Shown here one piece after another: positions 24,162 to 61,019 of a stretch of 64,000 nt of DNA. The notes beneath the pieces are model-generated. The model was not told where the DNA came from. It saw only the letters and a list, made by a program, of their open reading frames with translations, and did no database searches. Position 1 is the first letter of the stretch. The number at the start of each line of letters is the position of its first letter. Origin of the DNA: Leisingera sp. ANG-M7 (GTDB lineage Bacteria > Pseudomonadota > Alphaproteobacteria > Rhodobacterales > Rhodobacteraceae); contig NZ_JWLI01000006.1 in the NCBI RefSeq assembly GCF_000813965.1, positions 310,001-374,000 of the forward strand. Direction: 5' to 3'. The position numbers and the translations under genes are program-made.

Positions 24162-25298
24162 TCAAAACCGCTGCCCGACATAGACATAAAGCTGGGTTTC
24201 CTGCTCGTTGTTGCGGCTGACATCAATGGAGAAATCCACTGGAAATTTCTTGGACACCCGGTAGCGGACGCCTGCGCCGGCGGCGCTGTGGCTGCCGCCC
24301 TGCGTCAAATCGCCGAACTCCGGCCCGGTCCAGCCGGTACCGGCAAAGACCACGCCGCCCCACCGCCTGGAAAACCGTCTGCGGTATTCGGCCTGGATGG
24401 AGGCCGAGCGCGGCCCGATGAACTGTGTGCTGTTGAAGCCGCGCATGTTGTCGGTGGCGCCGATAGAGCATTGATCAAAGAAAGGCGTGTTTCCGGAGGC
24501 CGCGCATAAGGTGCCGCGCAGGGCAAACACCCCGCCGCGCCCAAGCGGACGGTAGCCGTCGAAAATGGCATAGGCCTTGTCATAGCGGCGGCTGAGCCCG
24601 CCCAGGGTATGGGAGCGGGTGGCAAAAGCGGTCAGCCGTGTGCCTTCTGTGGGATAGTCGCTGTCGTCGCGCCGGTCCCAATCGAGGCTGAGGCCGAAGG
24701 TGCCGATCTCCAGATCGGCATCGGGTTGCAGGCTGGATGGCAGCAGGCCTGCGTTTGGAGAGAGGCTGGTCTCCAAGTAGCGCAGAACGACACCGGCAGA
24801 CAGGTCCGGCGTCACCCCGTAGGAGGCATTGATCCGCACCAGCGATCCGTCCTGGCTGACCGGCAGAACACCCAGCCCGGTATAGAGGTCATAGACCGCA
24901 TCCGCCCGTGCCGCCAGCGCCTTGACCTGCCAGCGGTTTCCGGGCAGGGCAAAGTTGAACATGACCGCCGCCGCCTGGCTTCCATTGTCGGATCTGAGCC
25001 CGCCCACCCCGATCACGGAGGTGTTGGCTTCCGGGCTGGTCTTGAACAGGTAGCCCGCGCCTAAGCCAAGGCCGGAGCCGATCATCGGGCTGGAAAACGG
25101 CACCGGCGCCACCACGACAGAGCCGTTGCGGAAGCCATAGCCCTCCGCCTTCTGCGCAGTCTCGATATGGTTAAGGTGGCGTTCCGTCTGTTCAGGACCT
25201 GCGGCCAGCCCGGCCTTTGCCAGGCCTGCAAGCCCGGCGGCCAGGGCAGCAGAGCGGATGGCCCGGAGCAGGATATTACTTCTTCTGCCCGGCAGCAC
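24162..25298 (-). CDS. Outer membrane beta-barrel protein (BamA/D15-like surface antigen)
   Basis: A 378-aa protein. After a cleavable signal (LRAIRSAALAAGLAGLAKAG) it shows alternating beta strands, a VVVAPVPFSSPMIGSGLGLG start and a terminal Phe in VYVGQRF, the usual ending of outer-membrane barrels. The strand RDDSDYPTEGTRL recalls the Omp85 C-terminal barrel; no POTRA domain is present. GTG at 25298 with AGGGAGGAG upstream is chosen; this start lies 23 bp inside the preceding mscS-type gene. A longer ATG start at 25334 would place the signal 12 residues later. Substrate unknown. Confidence 0.78.
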   Translation of the reverse strand: MLPGRRSNILLRAIRSAALAAGLAGLAKAGLAAGPEQTERHLNHIETAQKAEGYGFRNGSVVVAPVPFSSPMIGSGLGLGAGYLFKTSPEANTSVIGVGGLRSDNGSQAAAVMFNFALPGNRWQVKALAARADAVYDLYTGLGVLPVSQDGSLVRINASYGVTPDLSAGVVLRYLETSLSPNAGLLPSSLQPDADLEIGTFGLSLDWDRRDDSDYPTEGTRLTAFATRSHTLGGLSRRYDKAYAIFDGYRPLGRGGVFALRGTLCAASGNTPFFDQCSIGATDNMRGFNSTQFIGPRSASIQAEYRRRFSRRWGGVVFAGTGWTGPEFGDLTQGGSHSAAGAGVRYRVSKKFPVDFSIDVSRNNEQETQLYVYVGQRF

Positions 25299-27546
25299 CA
25301 GCTCCTCCCTCTGCCGCCTGCTGCTGCGCGGCACTGCCAGCAGCGGCGGCCACGGCTGCCTTTTCGGTGTCGTTCAACTGCTCGGTATCTTCCAGCCCCG
25401 GGATCGCTACCCGGACCTCGCGGCGGGCAAAGTCGATGCCGTTTTCGGCAAAGGCCGCTTTCACCCGGTTGTAGATCTCCTTGCGGATGGTGAACTGGGT
25501 GCCCGGCTTGGCCATGAACTTGCCGCGCATGATCATACCGACGTCATCGAAATCAAACACGCCCTGGCTTTTGAACGGCTGCAGGAAGTCGTCCTTGTAC
25601 AGTTCATCCTCCAGCATCGAGGCGCCGATCTTCTTGAAGATCTTCTTGACCTTGTTGGGATCGGTATCAAACGGCACGGTAAAGCGCAGTTTCATGATCA
25701 CCCAGTCGCGGCTGTAGTTGGTCAGCTTGGGGATCTCGCCATAGGGAATGGTGTTGATCGGCCCGCGGTGATGGCGCAGCTGCATCGAGCGGATGGAGAT
25801 TTTCTCCACCGTGCCGCGGGTGCCTTCGACCTCCACGTACTCACCGACACGGAAGGCATCATCGATCAGGAAGAAGATGCCGGATACCACATCCGACACC
25901 AGCTTTTGCGCGCCAAAGCCGATGGCAAGGCCCAGGATCCCCGCACCGGCCAGAAGCGGCGTGATGTCGATGCCCAGCGCGCCGACCGCCAGCAGGCCGA
26001 AAATCACCACGATGGCGATCTGCGCGGTGACCAGCAAGAGCGGCAGCACCGTCGCCAGCCGGGACCCGCCCGCGCCGCCGCCTTCACCGCCCGCCTCAGC
26101 CTCCTCGCCGGAGGTCTGTTCCTTGGCGAGCCGCCTGTTGATCCACAGCGAAACGCCTTCATAAACCACATAGCCCACTGCGATGGTCATCAGGCAGCCG
26201 ATAATATTGCCGGCAATGCCCTCTGCACCGGTGGCGATGGCCATCAGGTCAACATCCCATGCGTTGGAGATGATCATCAGTACAATGCCCGCGACCAGCA
26301 CCCGGCCGATCCGAATATAGCTGCGTTTGGTGGAGATATACGCCGCTTCGGCCAGATGGCCCTCACCGGACATCGGCGGCACCAGATGCTTGACCAGGCC
26401 GCGGATAGCCGTGTCCAGGGCAGGCGCGGCCAGCAGCCAGAACATGGTGACGTAATGGGCGCCGTGGATCAGCTGTTCCACTTTTCCGAGGCCAACCAAG
26501 ATGCCGACGGTGACCCAAGTCAACGCCGCCACAGCCATTGCGAAATAGGGATAATACTGCGCTGCCATCTCATCGTACCTGGTGCGGTCCGGGTCGGTGC
26601 CGCGCATCATATCGGCCAGCCCTTCGCGCGCGGTCCAGGCAATCCAGATAATGTAGACATAGACCAGGGTGTCCAGCCAGTAGGCCAGACGGATTGATTC
26701 CGGCGGCACCCCGTTGGCGGCATTGAAGCCAACGGAGAAAATGGTCAGCCCGGCCAGGAAAATCAGACCAATGGTGTGCAAATGCAGGAAGTCGGCCCAG
26801 CGGTCACTGGCATTGACCAGCCGCCGGTCCGGCCGCTCCGGCGCCATGATGAAACGTGACACCGCCGCGCCCACACGCGGCATCCAGATCAGGTAGGTGA
26901 CCATCGGTGCCGCAAACTGCAGCATGTGCGCATCCAGCAGCGTGCGGCCCACAACGCGGATCACGACATAAAAGACCACAAGGCCGATTATCTCGCGCAG
27001 GAAGCGGCGGCCCAGAAAGCTCAGCGCTCCGGCCAGGGTGTCCGCATCGCCGCTGACTGTTTCAAGGTTGCGCCAGCGCGCGATCAGTTTGCGCACCCCG
27101 AATTCGGCAGCCAGGCCGATGGCGAGGGTCAGGGCTATCAGCCCCAGCATTTTCAGCACGCCGCCGAAACCGTCATGTTTCTGCACAAAGTTTCCGATCG
27201 CCCGGGCCTGGCCTTCCGGCAGCACCGGCAGTTTGCGCACTGCATCCGTGACCGGCAACGTGAAGGCTGTCCACAGCTGCACAACCCGCCCCGTCAGGGT
27301 CGGCGGCGGGGTGGCAGCCTCTTGCCGGGCTGCCACGGCGTCCAGCCTTTCAAGCAGCAGCACCCGGACCTGATCGTCGGACATTCGGGCGACCATCTCA
27401 TGAATGGCGTCCTCAGTCAGCGGATCAGGCAGAGCCGGGGCCCCGCTGGTCTGGGCAATGGCCGGTGCCTGCAGGGCTGTCCCAAGAACCAGAACTGTCA
27501 AAAAAACGCTGAAAATGCGGGCGAAGTGCTGAAAAATAAACGTCAT
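25276..27546 (-). CDS. Large mechanosensitive channel, MscS family
   Basis: A 756-aa protein. An N-terminal signal peptide (FARIFSVFLTVLVLGTALQA) precedes a periplasmic segment, then about nine membrane helices (residues 130-520) and the MscS channel core with a pore helix near residue 525 (ALLAGAGILGLAIGFGAQKL) and beta domain (FFLIDDAFRVGEYVEVEG). The long N-terminal region and multiple helices resemble the large MscK/MscM-like members that release solutes on hypo-osmotic shock. AGGAGG precedes the ATG. A Gly/Ala tail ends the protein, overlapping the barrel gene. Confidence 0.88.
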   Translation of the reverse strand: MTFIFQHFARIFSVFLTVLVLGTALQAPAIAQTSGAPALPDPLTEDAIHEMVARMSDDQVRVLLLERLDAVAARQEAATPPPTLTGRVVQLWTAFTLPVTDAVRKLPVLPEGQARAIGNFVQKHDGFGGVLKMLGLIALTLAIGLAAEFGVRKLIARWRNLETVSGDADTLAGALSFLGRRFLREIIGLVVFYVVIRVVGRTLLDAHMLQFAAPMVTYLIWMPRVGAAVSRFIMAPERPDRRLVNASDRWADFLHLHTIGLIFLAGLTIFSVGFNAANGVPPESIRLAYWLDTLVYVYIIWIAWTAREGLADMMRGTDPDRTRYDEMAAQYYPYFAMAVAALTWVTVGILVGLGKVEQLIHGAHYVTMFWLLAAPALDTAIRGLVKHLVPPMSGEGHLAEAAYISTKRSYIRIGRVLVAGIVLMIISNAWDVDLMAIATGAEGIAGNIIGCLMTIAVGYVVYEGVSLWINRRLAKEQTSGEEAEAGGEGGGAGGSRLATVLPLLLVTAQIAIVVIFGLLAVGALGIDITPLLAGAGILGLAIGFGAQKLVSDVVSGIFFLIDDAFRVGEYVEVEGTRGTVEKISIRSMQLRHHRGPINTIPYGEIPKLTNYSRDWVIMKLRFTVPFDTDPNKVKKIFKKIGASMLEDELYKDDFLQPFKSQGVFDFDDVGMIMRGKFMAKPGTQFTIRKEIYNRVKAAFAENGIDFARREVRVAIPGLEDTEQLNDTEKAAVAAAAGSAAQQQAAEGGAGAAGQKK

Positions 27547-27681: not shown

Positions 27682-27710
27682 AAAAAAAAGGCCGAGCACT
27701 AAGCTCGGCC
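27682..27710 (-). terminator. Strong intrinsic terminator
   Basis: On the minus strand, GGCCGAGC / GCTCGGCC with a 5-base loop is followed by eight T residues. This ends the candidate small RNA described separately, and may also stop read-through from the LysR gene upstream. Confidence 0.88.
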
Positions 27711-27758
27711 GAAGTCCAACAGGGAGGTATGAAGGGGGGCGAAGCCGCCGCCTTCATG
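27682..27758 (-). ncRNA. Candidate small RNA with CCUCCC linker
   Basis: Reading the minus strand from about 27758: a hairpin ATGAAGG ... CCTTCAT (27729-27757, inner stem GGCG-GCTT-CGCC), then a single-stranded ACCTCCCTG, then the terminator hairpin with eight U. The roughly 77-nt size, two-hairpin form and anti-Shine-Dalgarno-like CCUCCC recall the CcsR/cuckoo type sRNAs of alphaproteobacteria. A putative heat-shock-type promoter ends 7 bp upstream of the predicted start. All from inspection; no transcript evidence. Confidence 0.5.
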
Positions 27759-27764
27759 AGGTTC

Positions 27765-27793
27765 ATTTAGGGTGAATGGGCCTACCCTTCAAG
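27765..27793 (-). promoter_or_regulatory. Possible RpoH-type promoter for the candidate sRNA
   Basis: On the minus strand, CTTGAA (rc of 27788-27793) is separated by 15 bp from CCCTAAAT (rc of 27765-27772). This resembles the RpoH consensus (CTTGAA, about N14-15, CCCCATNT or CCCTATNT). It would initiate close to 27758, the predicted sRNA 5' end. Confidence 0.4.
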
Positions 27794-27922
27794 GGGAGTT
27801 ACGCCAAATCAGCGTCAATGCTGCTATGCGGTTTTTGCATGGCTGACGCATGTATTTGCCGCCGGATGGCCCGCCTGCCGTGAAGCAGCCGCAAAACCAT
27901 AGCGCCACCCCGGTTCGGGCGC

Positions 27923-28828
27923 TTAGAGTTTGCCCAGTTCCTTCATATGCTTGCGGTGTGCCATGATCTCGCTTTGAACAAAATCCCGGAAGGCGCCAAC
28001 GCGCTGGGAATGGCGCAGTTCCTCCGGATAGGCGAGGTAGACCGGAACCTCGTTCTGGACCTCTTCCGGCAGCACTTCGACCAGCTGAGGGAATTCTTCG
28101 GTCACATAGTCAGGCAGAATGCCGATGCCCAGATTGTGCAGGACGCCCTGCAGCACACCAAAGTAATTATTCACCGTCAGCAGCGAACCGGGGTTCAAGG
28201 CCATCAGTTTCTTGCCCAGAACAGCAGCGGACCCCACTTGGGCCGAATGCTGGTTCTGGCAGATCAGCCGGTGATTGGAGATGTCCGCGGATGTTTCCAG
28301 GTTTCCATTCTTTTCAAGATAGGACGGCGTCGCATAAAGCCCCATCCGCACTGTCATCAGCCGCTTGCGCACCAGATCGGCCTGGCTCGGCTCCTTCATG
28401 CGGATTGCCACGTCGGCCTCGCGCATCGGCAGGTCCAGCACCCGCTCTTCCAGCATCAGGTCGATCTTGAGGTTGGGGTACTGTTCATACAGTTTCGTCA
28501 GCCGCGGCGCCAGCCACAGGGTGCCAAAGCCCACGGTGGTGGTCACCCGCAGCTCGCCGAACACTTCCTCTTCGCTGTCGCGGATGCGGGCAGAGGCCGC
28601 TTCCAGCCGCGCAGACATGGATTGCGTCGCGTCAAACAGCAGCTCGCCCTGCTCCGTGAGAATCAGTCCGCGCGCGTGACGGTGGAAAAGCGTCGCATTC
28701 AGGCTTTCCTCCAGCGCCCGGATCTGGCGGCTGACCGCGGATTGCGACAGATTCAGCTTGTCCCCCGCATGGGTCAGGCTGCCCGCATCGGCCACCGCGT
28801 GAAATATTCTGAGCTTATCCCAATCCAT
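27923..28828 (-). CDS. LysR-family transcriptional regulator
   Basis: A 301-aa LysR protein. The helix-turn-helix lies at residues 1-60 (MDWDKLRIFHAVADAGSLTH, then LNLSQSAVSRQIRALEE) and the effector-binding domain follows. It is divergent from the indolepyruvate oxidoreductase gene across 169 bp, so regulation of that gene is the most likely role from family habit. Ligand unknown. Confidence 0.88.
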   Translation of the reverse strand: MDWDKLRIFHAVADAGSLTHAGDKLNLSQSAVSRQIRALEESLNATLFHRHARGLILTEQGELLFDATQSMSARLEAASARIRDSEEEVFGELRVTTTVGFGTLWLAPRLTKLYEQYPNLKIDLMLEERVLDLPMREADVAIRMKEPSQADLVRKRLMTVRMGLYATPSYLEKNGNLETSADISNHRLICQNQHSAQVGSAAVLGKKLMALNPGSLLTVNNYFGVLQGVLHNLGIGILPDYVTEEFPQLVEVLPEEVQNEVPVYLAYPEELRHSQRVGAFRDFVQSEIMAHRKHMKELGKL

Positions 28829-60413: not shown

Positions 60414-61019
60414 ATGTCCGACCGTACAGGTATATTTGAAGGCGACGATCCGTTTGCCATTGCCAGGTCCTGGCTTGCAGAGGCGGAGCAGACCGAACCA
60501 AATGATGCGAACGCCATTGCACTGGCCACGGTGGACGAGACCGGGCTGCCCAACAGCCGCATGGTTCTGCTCAAGGAAATCGAGGACAGCGCCTTTGTGT
60601 TCTATACCAACTACGGCAGTGCCAAGGCGCAGGAACTGGACCATGCGGGCAAGGCAGCCTTTGTGATGCATTGGAAATCGCTGCGCCGTCAGATCCGCGT
60701 GCGCGGCGCCATCACCCGCGAGGAAGGGCCGCAGGCCGATGAATATTACAGGTCCCGTTCGCTCAAAAGCAGGCTGGGAGCCTGGGCCTCAAAACAGTCG
60801 CAGCCGCTGGACAGCCGCGGCACGCTGATGGCGGAGGTCGCAAAAGTGACAGCGATGAAGGGCCCGAATCCCGAGCGCCCGCCGTTCTGGGGCGGGTACC
60901 GTCTGGTGCCGGTTGAGATCGAGTTTTGGGCCGATGGTGCCTTCCGGTTGCACGACCGGTTCCGCTGGCGCCGCGATGACGCATCTGCAGCATGGCAGAT
61001 CAATCGGCTCAATCCCTGA
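60414..61019 (+). CDS. pdxH: Pyridoxamine 5'-phosphate oxidase
   Basis: A 201-aa FMN enzyme: [20 protein letters not shown], then [11 protein letters not shown] and the C-terminal DRFRWRR segment. It makes pyridoxal phosphate. ATG at 60414 has GAGG 5 bp upstream. Confidence 0.94.

Follow-up and report, generated by a model that had tools for sequence, protein, structure and literature searches.

The minus strand of the window (the whole 64,000-nucleotide stretch of Leisingera sp. ANG-M7 DNA analysed here) carries at 27682..27758 a small RNA (sRNA) gene of about 77 nt which, judged by gene order and sequence, is the positional orthologue of the sorY gene of Rhodobacter sphaeroides, and not a member of the Rfam SorY family as curated. 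We consider it probable, at roughly 0.7, that this RNA is made from its own promoter behind a gene for a LysR regulator of the LsrB/VtlR type, that it receives both RpoH and LsrB inputs and that it acts by anti-Shine-Dalgarno pairing. In the proposed mechanism, an RpoH-type -35/-10 pair would drive sorY as the stress input, and the LsrB-type regulator from the adjoining gene would act, probably as an activator, at a box 36 bp upstream of the -35 element. In the folded RNA, the free linker ACCUCCCUGUUGGACUU would lie between a 5' hairpin and a terminator; presumably with Hfq, this linker would pair with Shine-Dalgarno sequences of the AACAGGGAGG type, and this pairing would reduce the translation of uptake and metabolic genes. 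The sRNA is of a type already described, here in a further genome; the earlier note on this DNA had spotted it correctly and linked it, probably wrongly, to CcsR, and Rfam mislabels it. The anatomy, synteny, conservation, regulator orthology, box and promoter statistics and candidate target sites described below were all obtained by computation; transcription in strain ANG-M7 and the use of Hfq are what we infer from them. Statements taken from cited papers refer to the portions of their text that were accessible.

The hairpin, unpaired ACCUCCCUG linker, eight-U terminator and CTTGAA-N15-CCCTAAAT pair from which the earlier note had proposed an sRNA all lie on the minus strand where it had placed them, according to the letters, folding and a pattern scan. 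Folding yields a first hairpin at 27729..27757, followed by the linker ACCTCCCTGTTGGACTT (27712..27728), unpaired in the fold and predicted to be the anti-Shine-Dalgarno seed, by the stem of the terminator hairpin (27690..27710, also recovered by the pattern scan) and by the U8 tract (27682..27689, eight T in the DNA), which sets the 3' end. The 5' end is a prediction from the position of the -10 element and from the mapped start of R. sphaeroides SorY (PMC6238624); it lies about 165 bp behind the LysR gene, on the same strand. The -10 element CCCTAAAT (27765..27772) and the -35 element CTTGAA (27788..27793), both of the RpoH type by their letters and conservation, are separated by 15 bases. 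The folded RNA stretch has an energy of -35.2 kcal/mol (z -3.73) and is more stable than all of 200 shuffled versions.

When the whole window was scanned, the Rfam SorX model (RF02784) matched 27684-27763 with 54.6 bits (cut-off 46.6, E 1.6e-10); when the stretch was searched alone, the SorY model (RF02651) matched 27682-27754 with 56.8 bits, below its gathering score of 111. These two lead the seven Rfam families reported for the stretch up to E = 1. Within the family Rhodobacteraceae, sampled with one genome per genus, the SorY model has matches in 138 of 149 genomes, although its cut-off of 111 is passed in just one, so that the SorX model then claims SorY orthologues. The match in that one genome (G051, locus L008) lies at 1632645, and the start published for R. 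sphaeroides SorY, 1,632,642 (PMC6238624), is only three bases away; we therefore take G051 to be R. sphaeroides. There, the gene before SorY encodes a LysR regulator with 73% identity to that of the window, and an indolepyruvate oxidoreductase gene is found beyond it. The same LysR gene adjoins the SorY locus in 108 of 110 relatives (28/30, 20/20 and 60/60; the exceptions are L012 and L026). These relatives comprise 20 orthologues from the genus and 90 of the 137 other matching genomes (the 30 best and 60 lower-ranked ones, some being skipped), most of the remaining matching genomes scoring lower than the 90 compared. Together with the window's own locus they form the 111 loci used below, which divide into 91 (own locus and 90 other genera) and 21 (own locus and 20 from the genus). 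With R. sphaeroides SorY (RSs1543) the window element has in common the core CUUCAUACCUCCCUGUUGGACUU, the GGCCGAGC terminator, the place behind the same LysR gene and an RpoH-type promoter, whereas its first hairpin is shorter and of other sequence, and its 56.8 bits stand against a cut-off of 111. On the other side of sorY, an MscS-type mechanosensitive channel gene (25276-27546, minus strand) lies behind it in the window; this gene is beside sorY in only some relatives.

The earlier note had suggested kinship with the CcsR/cuckoo RNAs, to be checked by a covariance search of sRNA families. That search, led by SorX and SorY as given above, returned no family of either name among the seven matches up to E = 1, a comparison made by family name against a collection that may lack a CcsR model. 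The CcsR1-4 RNAs have a CU-rich motif. Like SorY, they are described in the accessible literature as RpoHI/RpoHII-dependent, Hfq-bound stress sRNAs of R. sphaeroides; they differ in being co-transcribed with ccaF1 and in not lying beside a LysR gene. The window locus is syntenic with sorY, and we regard the element as the positional orthologue of SorY; kinship with CcsR finds no support in these data.

Conservation across the 111 loci supports the folded architecture and, together with the sequence, the anti-Shine-Dalgarno character of the linker that the earlier note had proposed. In single-sequence folds, a 5' hairpin of at least 8 pairs forms in 110/111 loci, compared with 49% after shuffling of the 5' 42 nt (the shuffles preserved composition only), and 69/111 loci leave eight or more of the ten leading core bases unpaired, compared with 17% among shuffles. 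The core is kept with at most one mismatch in all 111 loci, ACCTCCCTG being exact in 110 and the linker ACCTCCCTGTTGGAC in 109, a conservation that is partly by construction because RNA models selected these loci. The consensus fold of alignment A2, made from 40 of 90 non-redundant SorY loci, contained only the terminator and a two-pair stem and gave no covariation support for the first hairpin; the hairpin varies in length, and single-sequence folding was used in place of the consensus.

The promoter stretch lies outside the RNA models by which the loci were selected. A pair of the form TTG-N(17-20)-C[ACT]TANNT occurs within 60 bases before the RNA in 66 of the 91 loci, where shuffles lead one to expect 0.7, and in all 21 genus loci (0.2 expected), with a spacing of N18 in all but two. 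By this pattern, the window locus has its own RpoH-type promoter, and its use by RpoH appears likely. The view of the element as a stress-type sRNA with a heat-shock-like promoter of its own is thereby borne out at the level of sequence and conservation. In R. sphaeroides, SorY has its own RpoHI/RpoHII-dependent promoter (PMC6238624, PMC5036791) and its own mapped start (PMC6238624), and is described as arising without processing; it is also reported to bind Hfq and to limit malate import, the mRNA of the malate transporter being takP.

The gene upstream of sorY (27923..28828, minus strand, 301 aa) encodes a LysR protein whose best PDB match is 9HH1 (1e-71; next match 5.8e-27), the structure of LsrB of Agrobacterium tumefaciens (PMC11975290). 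When A. tumefaciens LsrB was in turn searched against the genome of the window, the window gene came first with 245 bits, followed by 37 other places from 123 bits down; by this reciprocal best match, the window LysR is the orthologue of Agrobacterium LsrB/VtlR. Matches to LsrB at 1e-60 or better are present, one each, in 111 of 192 genomes of the class, among at most 12 candidates scored per genome. A tree of 43 rows separates LsrB from five of six LysR outgroup rows of the own genome with support of 100/100; the sixth outgroup row (branch length 5.29, possibly a wrong frame) was placed inside the LsrB rows, the inner order is mostly without resolution, and the bootstrap had not settled. Although a 2025 paper, in its accessible text, calls LsrB unique to Rhizobiales, the class survey, the reciprocal match and the tree speak against this restriction. 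The LysR neighbour, whose promoter had appeared in the earlier note as a rival source of the transcript, is probably the sRNA's own regulator, of the LsrB/VtlR type. Two of the assemblies surveyed (L272 and L316, titled Arenimonas sp. MAG and Bacillus subtilis) have LsrB genes that share 93% and 69% identity with the Agrobacterium query, and may be misnamed or contaminated.

With the LsrB/VtlR loci of rhizobia the window locus shares the clade of the regulator, an sRNA behind its gene and a similar DNA box, whereas its operon context differs: a divergent indolepyruvate oxidoreductase gene adjoins LysR, and the trxB-like motif is missing. trxB is the published operon partner of LsrB/VtlR (PMC7486931). 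A trxB-like motif, searched as a motif only, immediately precedes lsrB in the same orientation in 23 of 29 class loci and in 78/78 rhizobial loci; it is absent in the three Rhodobacteraceae loci, which are among the six class misses. It seems, from these motif counts, that the trxB partner was lost in Rhodobacteraceae while the sRNA stayed. The proteins differ as well. Three rhizobial LsrB proteins have two conserved cysteines, C144 and C273 (PMC11975290); they are replaced by V and A in the window protein, and both are present in 7/7 rhizobial rows and absent from 7/7 Rhodobacteraceae rows. A further 23 class rows are without them, except for one cysteine at position 144 in L211. Because the pair is confined to rhizobial rows, disulfide sensing by LsrB looks like a rhizobial addition.

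In A. tumefaciens, VtlR activates AbcR1, which is encoded directly behind vtlR, and the proposed box is GCAT-N3-TG-N3-T (PMC7486931). A similar box, GCATAGCAGCATT, is found by a loose pattern and a rhizobial matrix at 27817..27829 (minus strand), 36 bp before the CTTG of the -35 element. The loose form GCAT-N4-G-N3-T occurs in 78 of the 91 loci (5.8 expected) and in 21/21 genus loci (1.0 expected), the own locus being counted in both, and its distance to CTTG is 35-36 bp in 56 of 61 loci measured and 36 bp in 20/21 genus loci; 17 of the 78 loci with the loose box have no CTTG within the spacing range searched. The strict published box was found in only 11 of the 91 loci and in one of the 21 from the genus, compared with 58 of 80 rhizobial loci, where TTG follows 26 bp on in 46/58, a spacing shorter by about one helical turn than in the sorY promoters.

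A two-strand, 15-bp matrix built from 24 distinct rhizobial LsrB boxes only, each taken on both strands, reaches at least 8 bits in 103/111 sorY promoter regions and in 2/111 control stretches of LysR coding sequence of equal length. The own box scores 8.8 bits, on its reverse strand. This matrix was tried second and owes part of its better performance to the near-palindromic form of the box; with the earlier one-strand matrix, 37/111 loci beat all 50 shuffles and 66 beat all but two, and the own locus was weak, 20 of its 50 shuffles being equally good. Over the whole window, the loose box shows no enrichment (40 found, 48 expected), and the evidence for the box therefore lies in its position and conservation; the own intergenic region between lysR and the indolepyruvate oxidoreductase gene has no loose box. 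A possible second, inverted box, GCATGGCTGACGCATG, occupies 27837..27852 on the plus strand; its first 11 letters equal the rhizobial consensus GCATGGCTGACATGC, and it is partly conserved in the genus alignment. By matrix and loose pattern, then, a box of the LsrB type precedes the sRNA, and control of sorY by LsrB, including binding at the predicted box and the direction of its effect, would be the natural reading.

The same SorY orthologue might instead be controlled by RpoH alone, with the box used for LysR autoregulation, for repression or by another protein. We hold this to be unlikely, even though the accessible R. sphaeroides literature names only RpoHI and RpoHII, the strict published box is rare in sorY promoters and LsrB here lacks the redox cysteines of rhizobia: neither the fixed spacing of the box, with its counterpart at another fixed distance in rhizobia, nor its recovery by a matrix of purely rhizobial origin fits such a role well. 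A further reading, that the RNA is cut from the transcript of the LysR gene, would parallel the published origin of its paralogue SorX, and it is true that the RNA stands in tandem behind the LysR gene and that the terminator scan found no terminator between them. It is nevertheless quite improbable in view of the N18-spaced promoter directly before the RNA in 66/91 loci and of the unprocessed R. sphaeroides SorY with its mapped start, although read-through from the LysR gene could add to the level of SorY.

That the window RNA is SorX, as the Rfam threshold has it (54.6 bits against 46.6), is very improbable. SorX has a ACCUCCCUGUUGGAC core and a terminator in common with the window element but derives from the 3' UTR of an OmpR-like gene (PMC6238624), whereas the neighbour at the window locus is LysR. 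The genome of ANG-M7 contains a stronger SorX match (L001, 87.5 bits, C4:56539-56611, minus strand) behind an OmpR-like gene, named by eye; this gene adjoins all 29 of the best SorX loci loaded (28 relatives and the own genome), and L001 is likely to be the true SorX orthologue. SorY synteny of the window copy together with this OmpR-linked copy led us to reject SorX as the identity of the window element. We give scarcely any credence to the remaining view, in which the element is only the terminator of the LysR gene and has no function as an RNA: one would expect a terminator at this place, and there is no other nearer to the LysR gene, but the hairpin, promoter and box are kept in the genus while the stretch past the LysR stop codon varies. 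The preferred reading thus remains a SorY orthologue with its own promoter and two inputs.

The complement of the core is AACAGGGAGG, in which a Shine-Dalgarno sequence carries a specific prefix. In the 21 genus genomes, AACAGGGAGG-N(3-10)-ATG occurs 122 times, compared with 38 for the permuted prefix ACAAGGGAGG and 3 for the first pattern reversed; shared descent and the antisense strand of SorX (7 of the 122 sites) inflate the count, and the control is a single permuted seed. The own genome has five seed matches: genes for a PotF-like polyamine-binding protein, a DUF2147 protein and an SDR enzyme, a doubtful 39-codon frame and the SorX antisense strand. The leaders of the first three form ten pairs each with the core, at -19.3 kcal/mol. 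Among the matches in relatives are sugar-binding proteins, an NCS1 permease and a TRAP DctQ subunit. However, the permuted seed also finds transport genes, by eye (L405, L406, L407, L410, L413, L420 and L423), so that these data do not demonstrate a preference for uptake genes; 50 target loci were read, 9 of them being run against Pfam and 5 against NCBIfam. The published targets takP and potA are missing among the 12 R. sphaeroides seed matches, as read by eye. Since the core is common to SorX and SorY, the seed sites cannot tell the two apart. SorX is reported to lower polyamine uptake and SorY to lower malate import, effects that agree in kind with the predicted action. In ANG-M7, SorY may mask ribosome sites, for example that of the PotF-like gene, and so repress its targets.

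An element composed of CCUCCCUG and a terminator is also found behind the LsrB gene in 55 of 86 loci outside Rhodobacteraceae, where shuffles gave 0.8 and the reverse strand 0. These 86 are the LsrB loci outside the family with at least 250 bases behind the gene, and an element was scored when CCTCCCTG, with one mismatch allowed, had a terminator after it on its own strand, both lying within 1 kb. CCTCCCTG is exact in 53 of the 55, GACGTGAAGCCTCCCTGT is present in 38 and CTCCCAGACGT in 41; the loose box precedes the element in 25/55 (4.6 expected). Among the 31 loci scored negative, L160 does carry the element (outside the 55), and a few others, such as L224 and L234, carry variants of it. In 12 of 30 class loci, Rfam reports a SorX match that lies below the cut-off. 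We built a model, R1, from an alignment (A1) of 40 of the 53 class-wide elements; the 13 omitted are mostly more divergent, so that R1 is narrower than the set. Of the 111 SorY loci, 69 from Rhodobacteraceae were given to R1, which reports the SorY locus in all of them with E-values, rough as these are, from 9e-8 to 0.002. SorY and the class-wide element are thus probably related, chiefly through core and terminator.

The rhizobial counterpart in position is AbcR1/AbcR2 (alpha-r15): as for SorY, the sRNA lies behind lsrB/vtlR with an LsrB box before it, and its published anti-Shine-Dalgarno motifs and ABC transporter mRNA targets, as far as the accessible texts describe them, resemble the principle of SorY. 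As for sequence homology between AbcR and SorY, R1 gave no confident match on 80 rhizobial loci, its 42 weak matches up to E = 10 being headed by one of 13.4 bits (E 0.15) that misses the core. Of the AbcR motifs CUCCCA and GUUCCC described in the accessible part of PMC5461406, the former being M1 in the first hairpin of AbcR, neither was found in 27682-27758. AbcR and SorY have place, regulator, box and working principle in common, and may or may not be homologous as RNAs. In Sinorhizobium meliloti, LsrB drives AbcR1 and RpoH1 drives AbcR2 (PMC8844928), while the earlier PMC7486931 reports no LsrB role for AbcR in this species. SorY and AbcR thus probably occupy corresponding positions in a single old LsrB-sRNA module, to which RpoH is a second input here. 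We incline, if only slightly, to a fuller scenario in which an old alphaproteobacterial module of LsrB and an anti-Shine-Dalgarno sRNA, not limited to Rhizobiales, has SorY and AbcR1/2 as its ends; the sorY promoter would unite the LsrB and RpoH inputs, which in S. meliloti are divided between AbcR1 and AbcR2, and disulfide sensing would have come later, in Rhizobiales.

In the literature searched, which leaves most subscription papers outside, we found no link of SorY to LsrB or to AbcR; SorY never appeared together with AbcR1, nor AbcR with Rhodobacterales and sRNA. Work on SorX/SorY has dealt with photooxidative stress in Rhodobacter, and work on AbcR with nutrient uptake and host interaction in rhizobia and related bacteria; the two lines seem to have run separately. 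If these RNAs belong to one module, SorY would gain a named candidate regulator, which must sense its signal by means other than the rhizobial cysteines, and a predicted sRNA could be assigned to 55 of the 86 LsrB loci examined outside Rhodobacteraceae.

Several loci carry more than one element. Behind the LsrB gene of L098 lies a tandem pair of SorY-like elements (G001:C9:60608-60669 and 60791-60866) that recalls AbcR1/AbcR2, and L188 has three CCTCCCTG-plus-terminator elements behind one LsrB gene, at positions 224, 522 and 751 past its stop codon. In the own genome, R1 reports L001 and L003 and does not report L004 and L005, which appear to be terminators only. L003 (G000:C55:466084-466142, plus strand) is a third SorX/SorY-like element, with 40.9 bits, 23.5 bits in R1 and a CCTCCCTGTCAGACT core; a match of 37 to 43 bits is listed in all 21 genus genomes and may or may not represent one locus.
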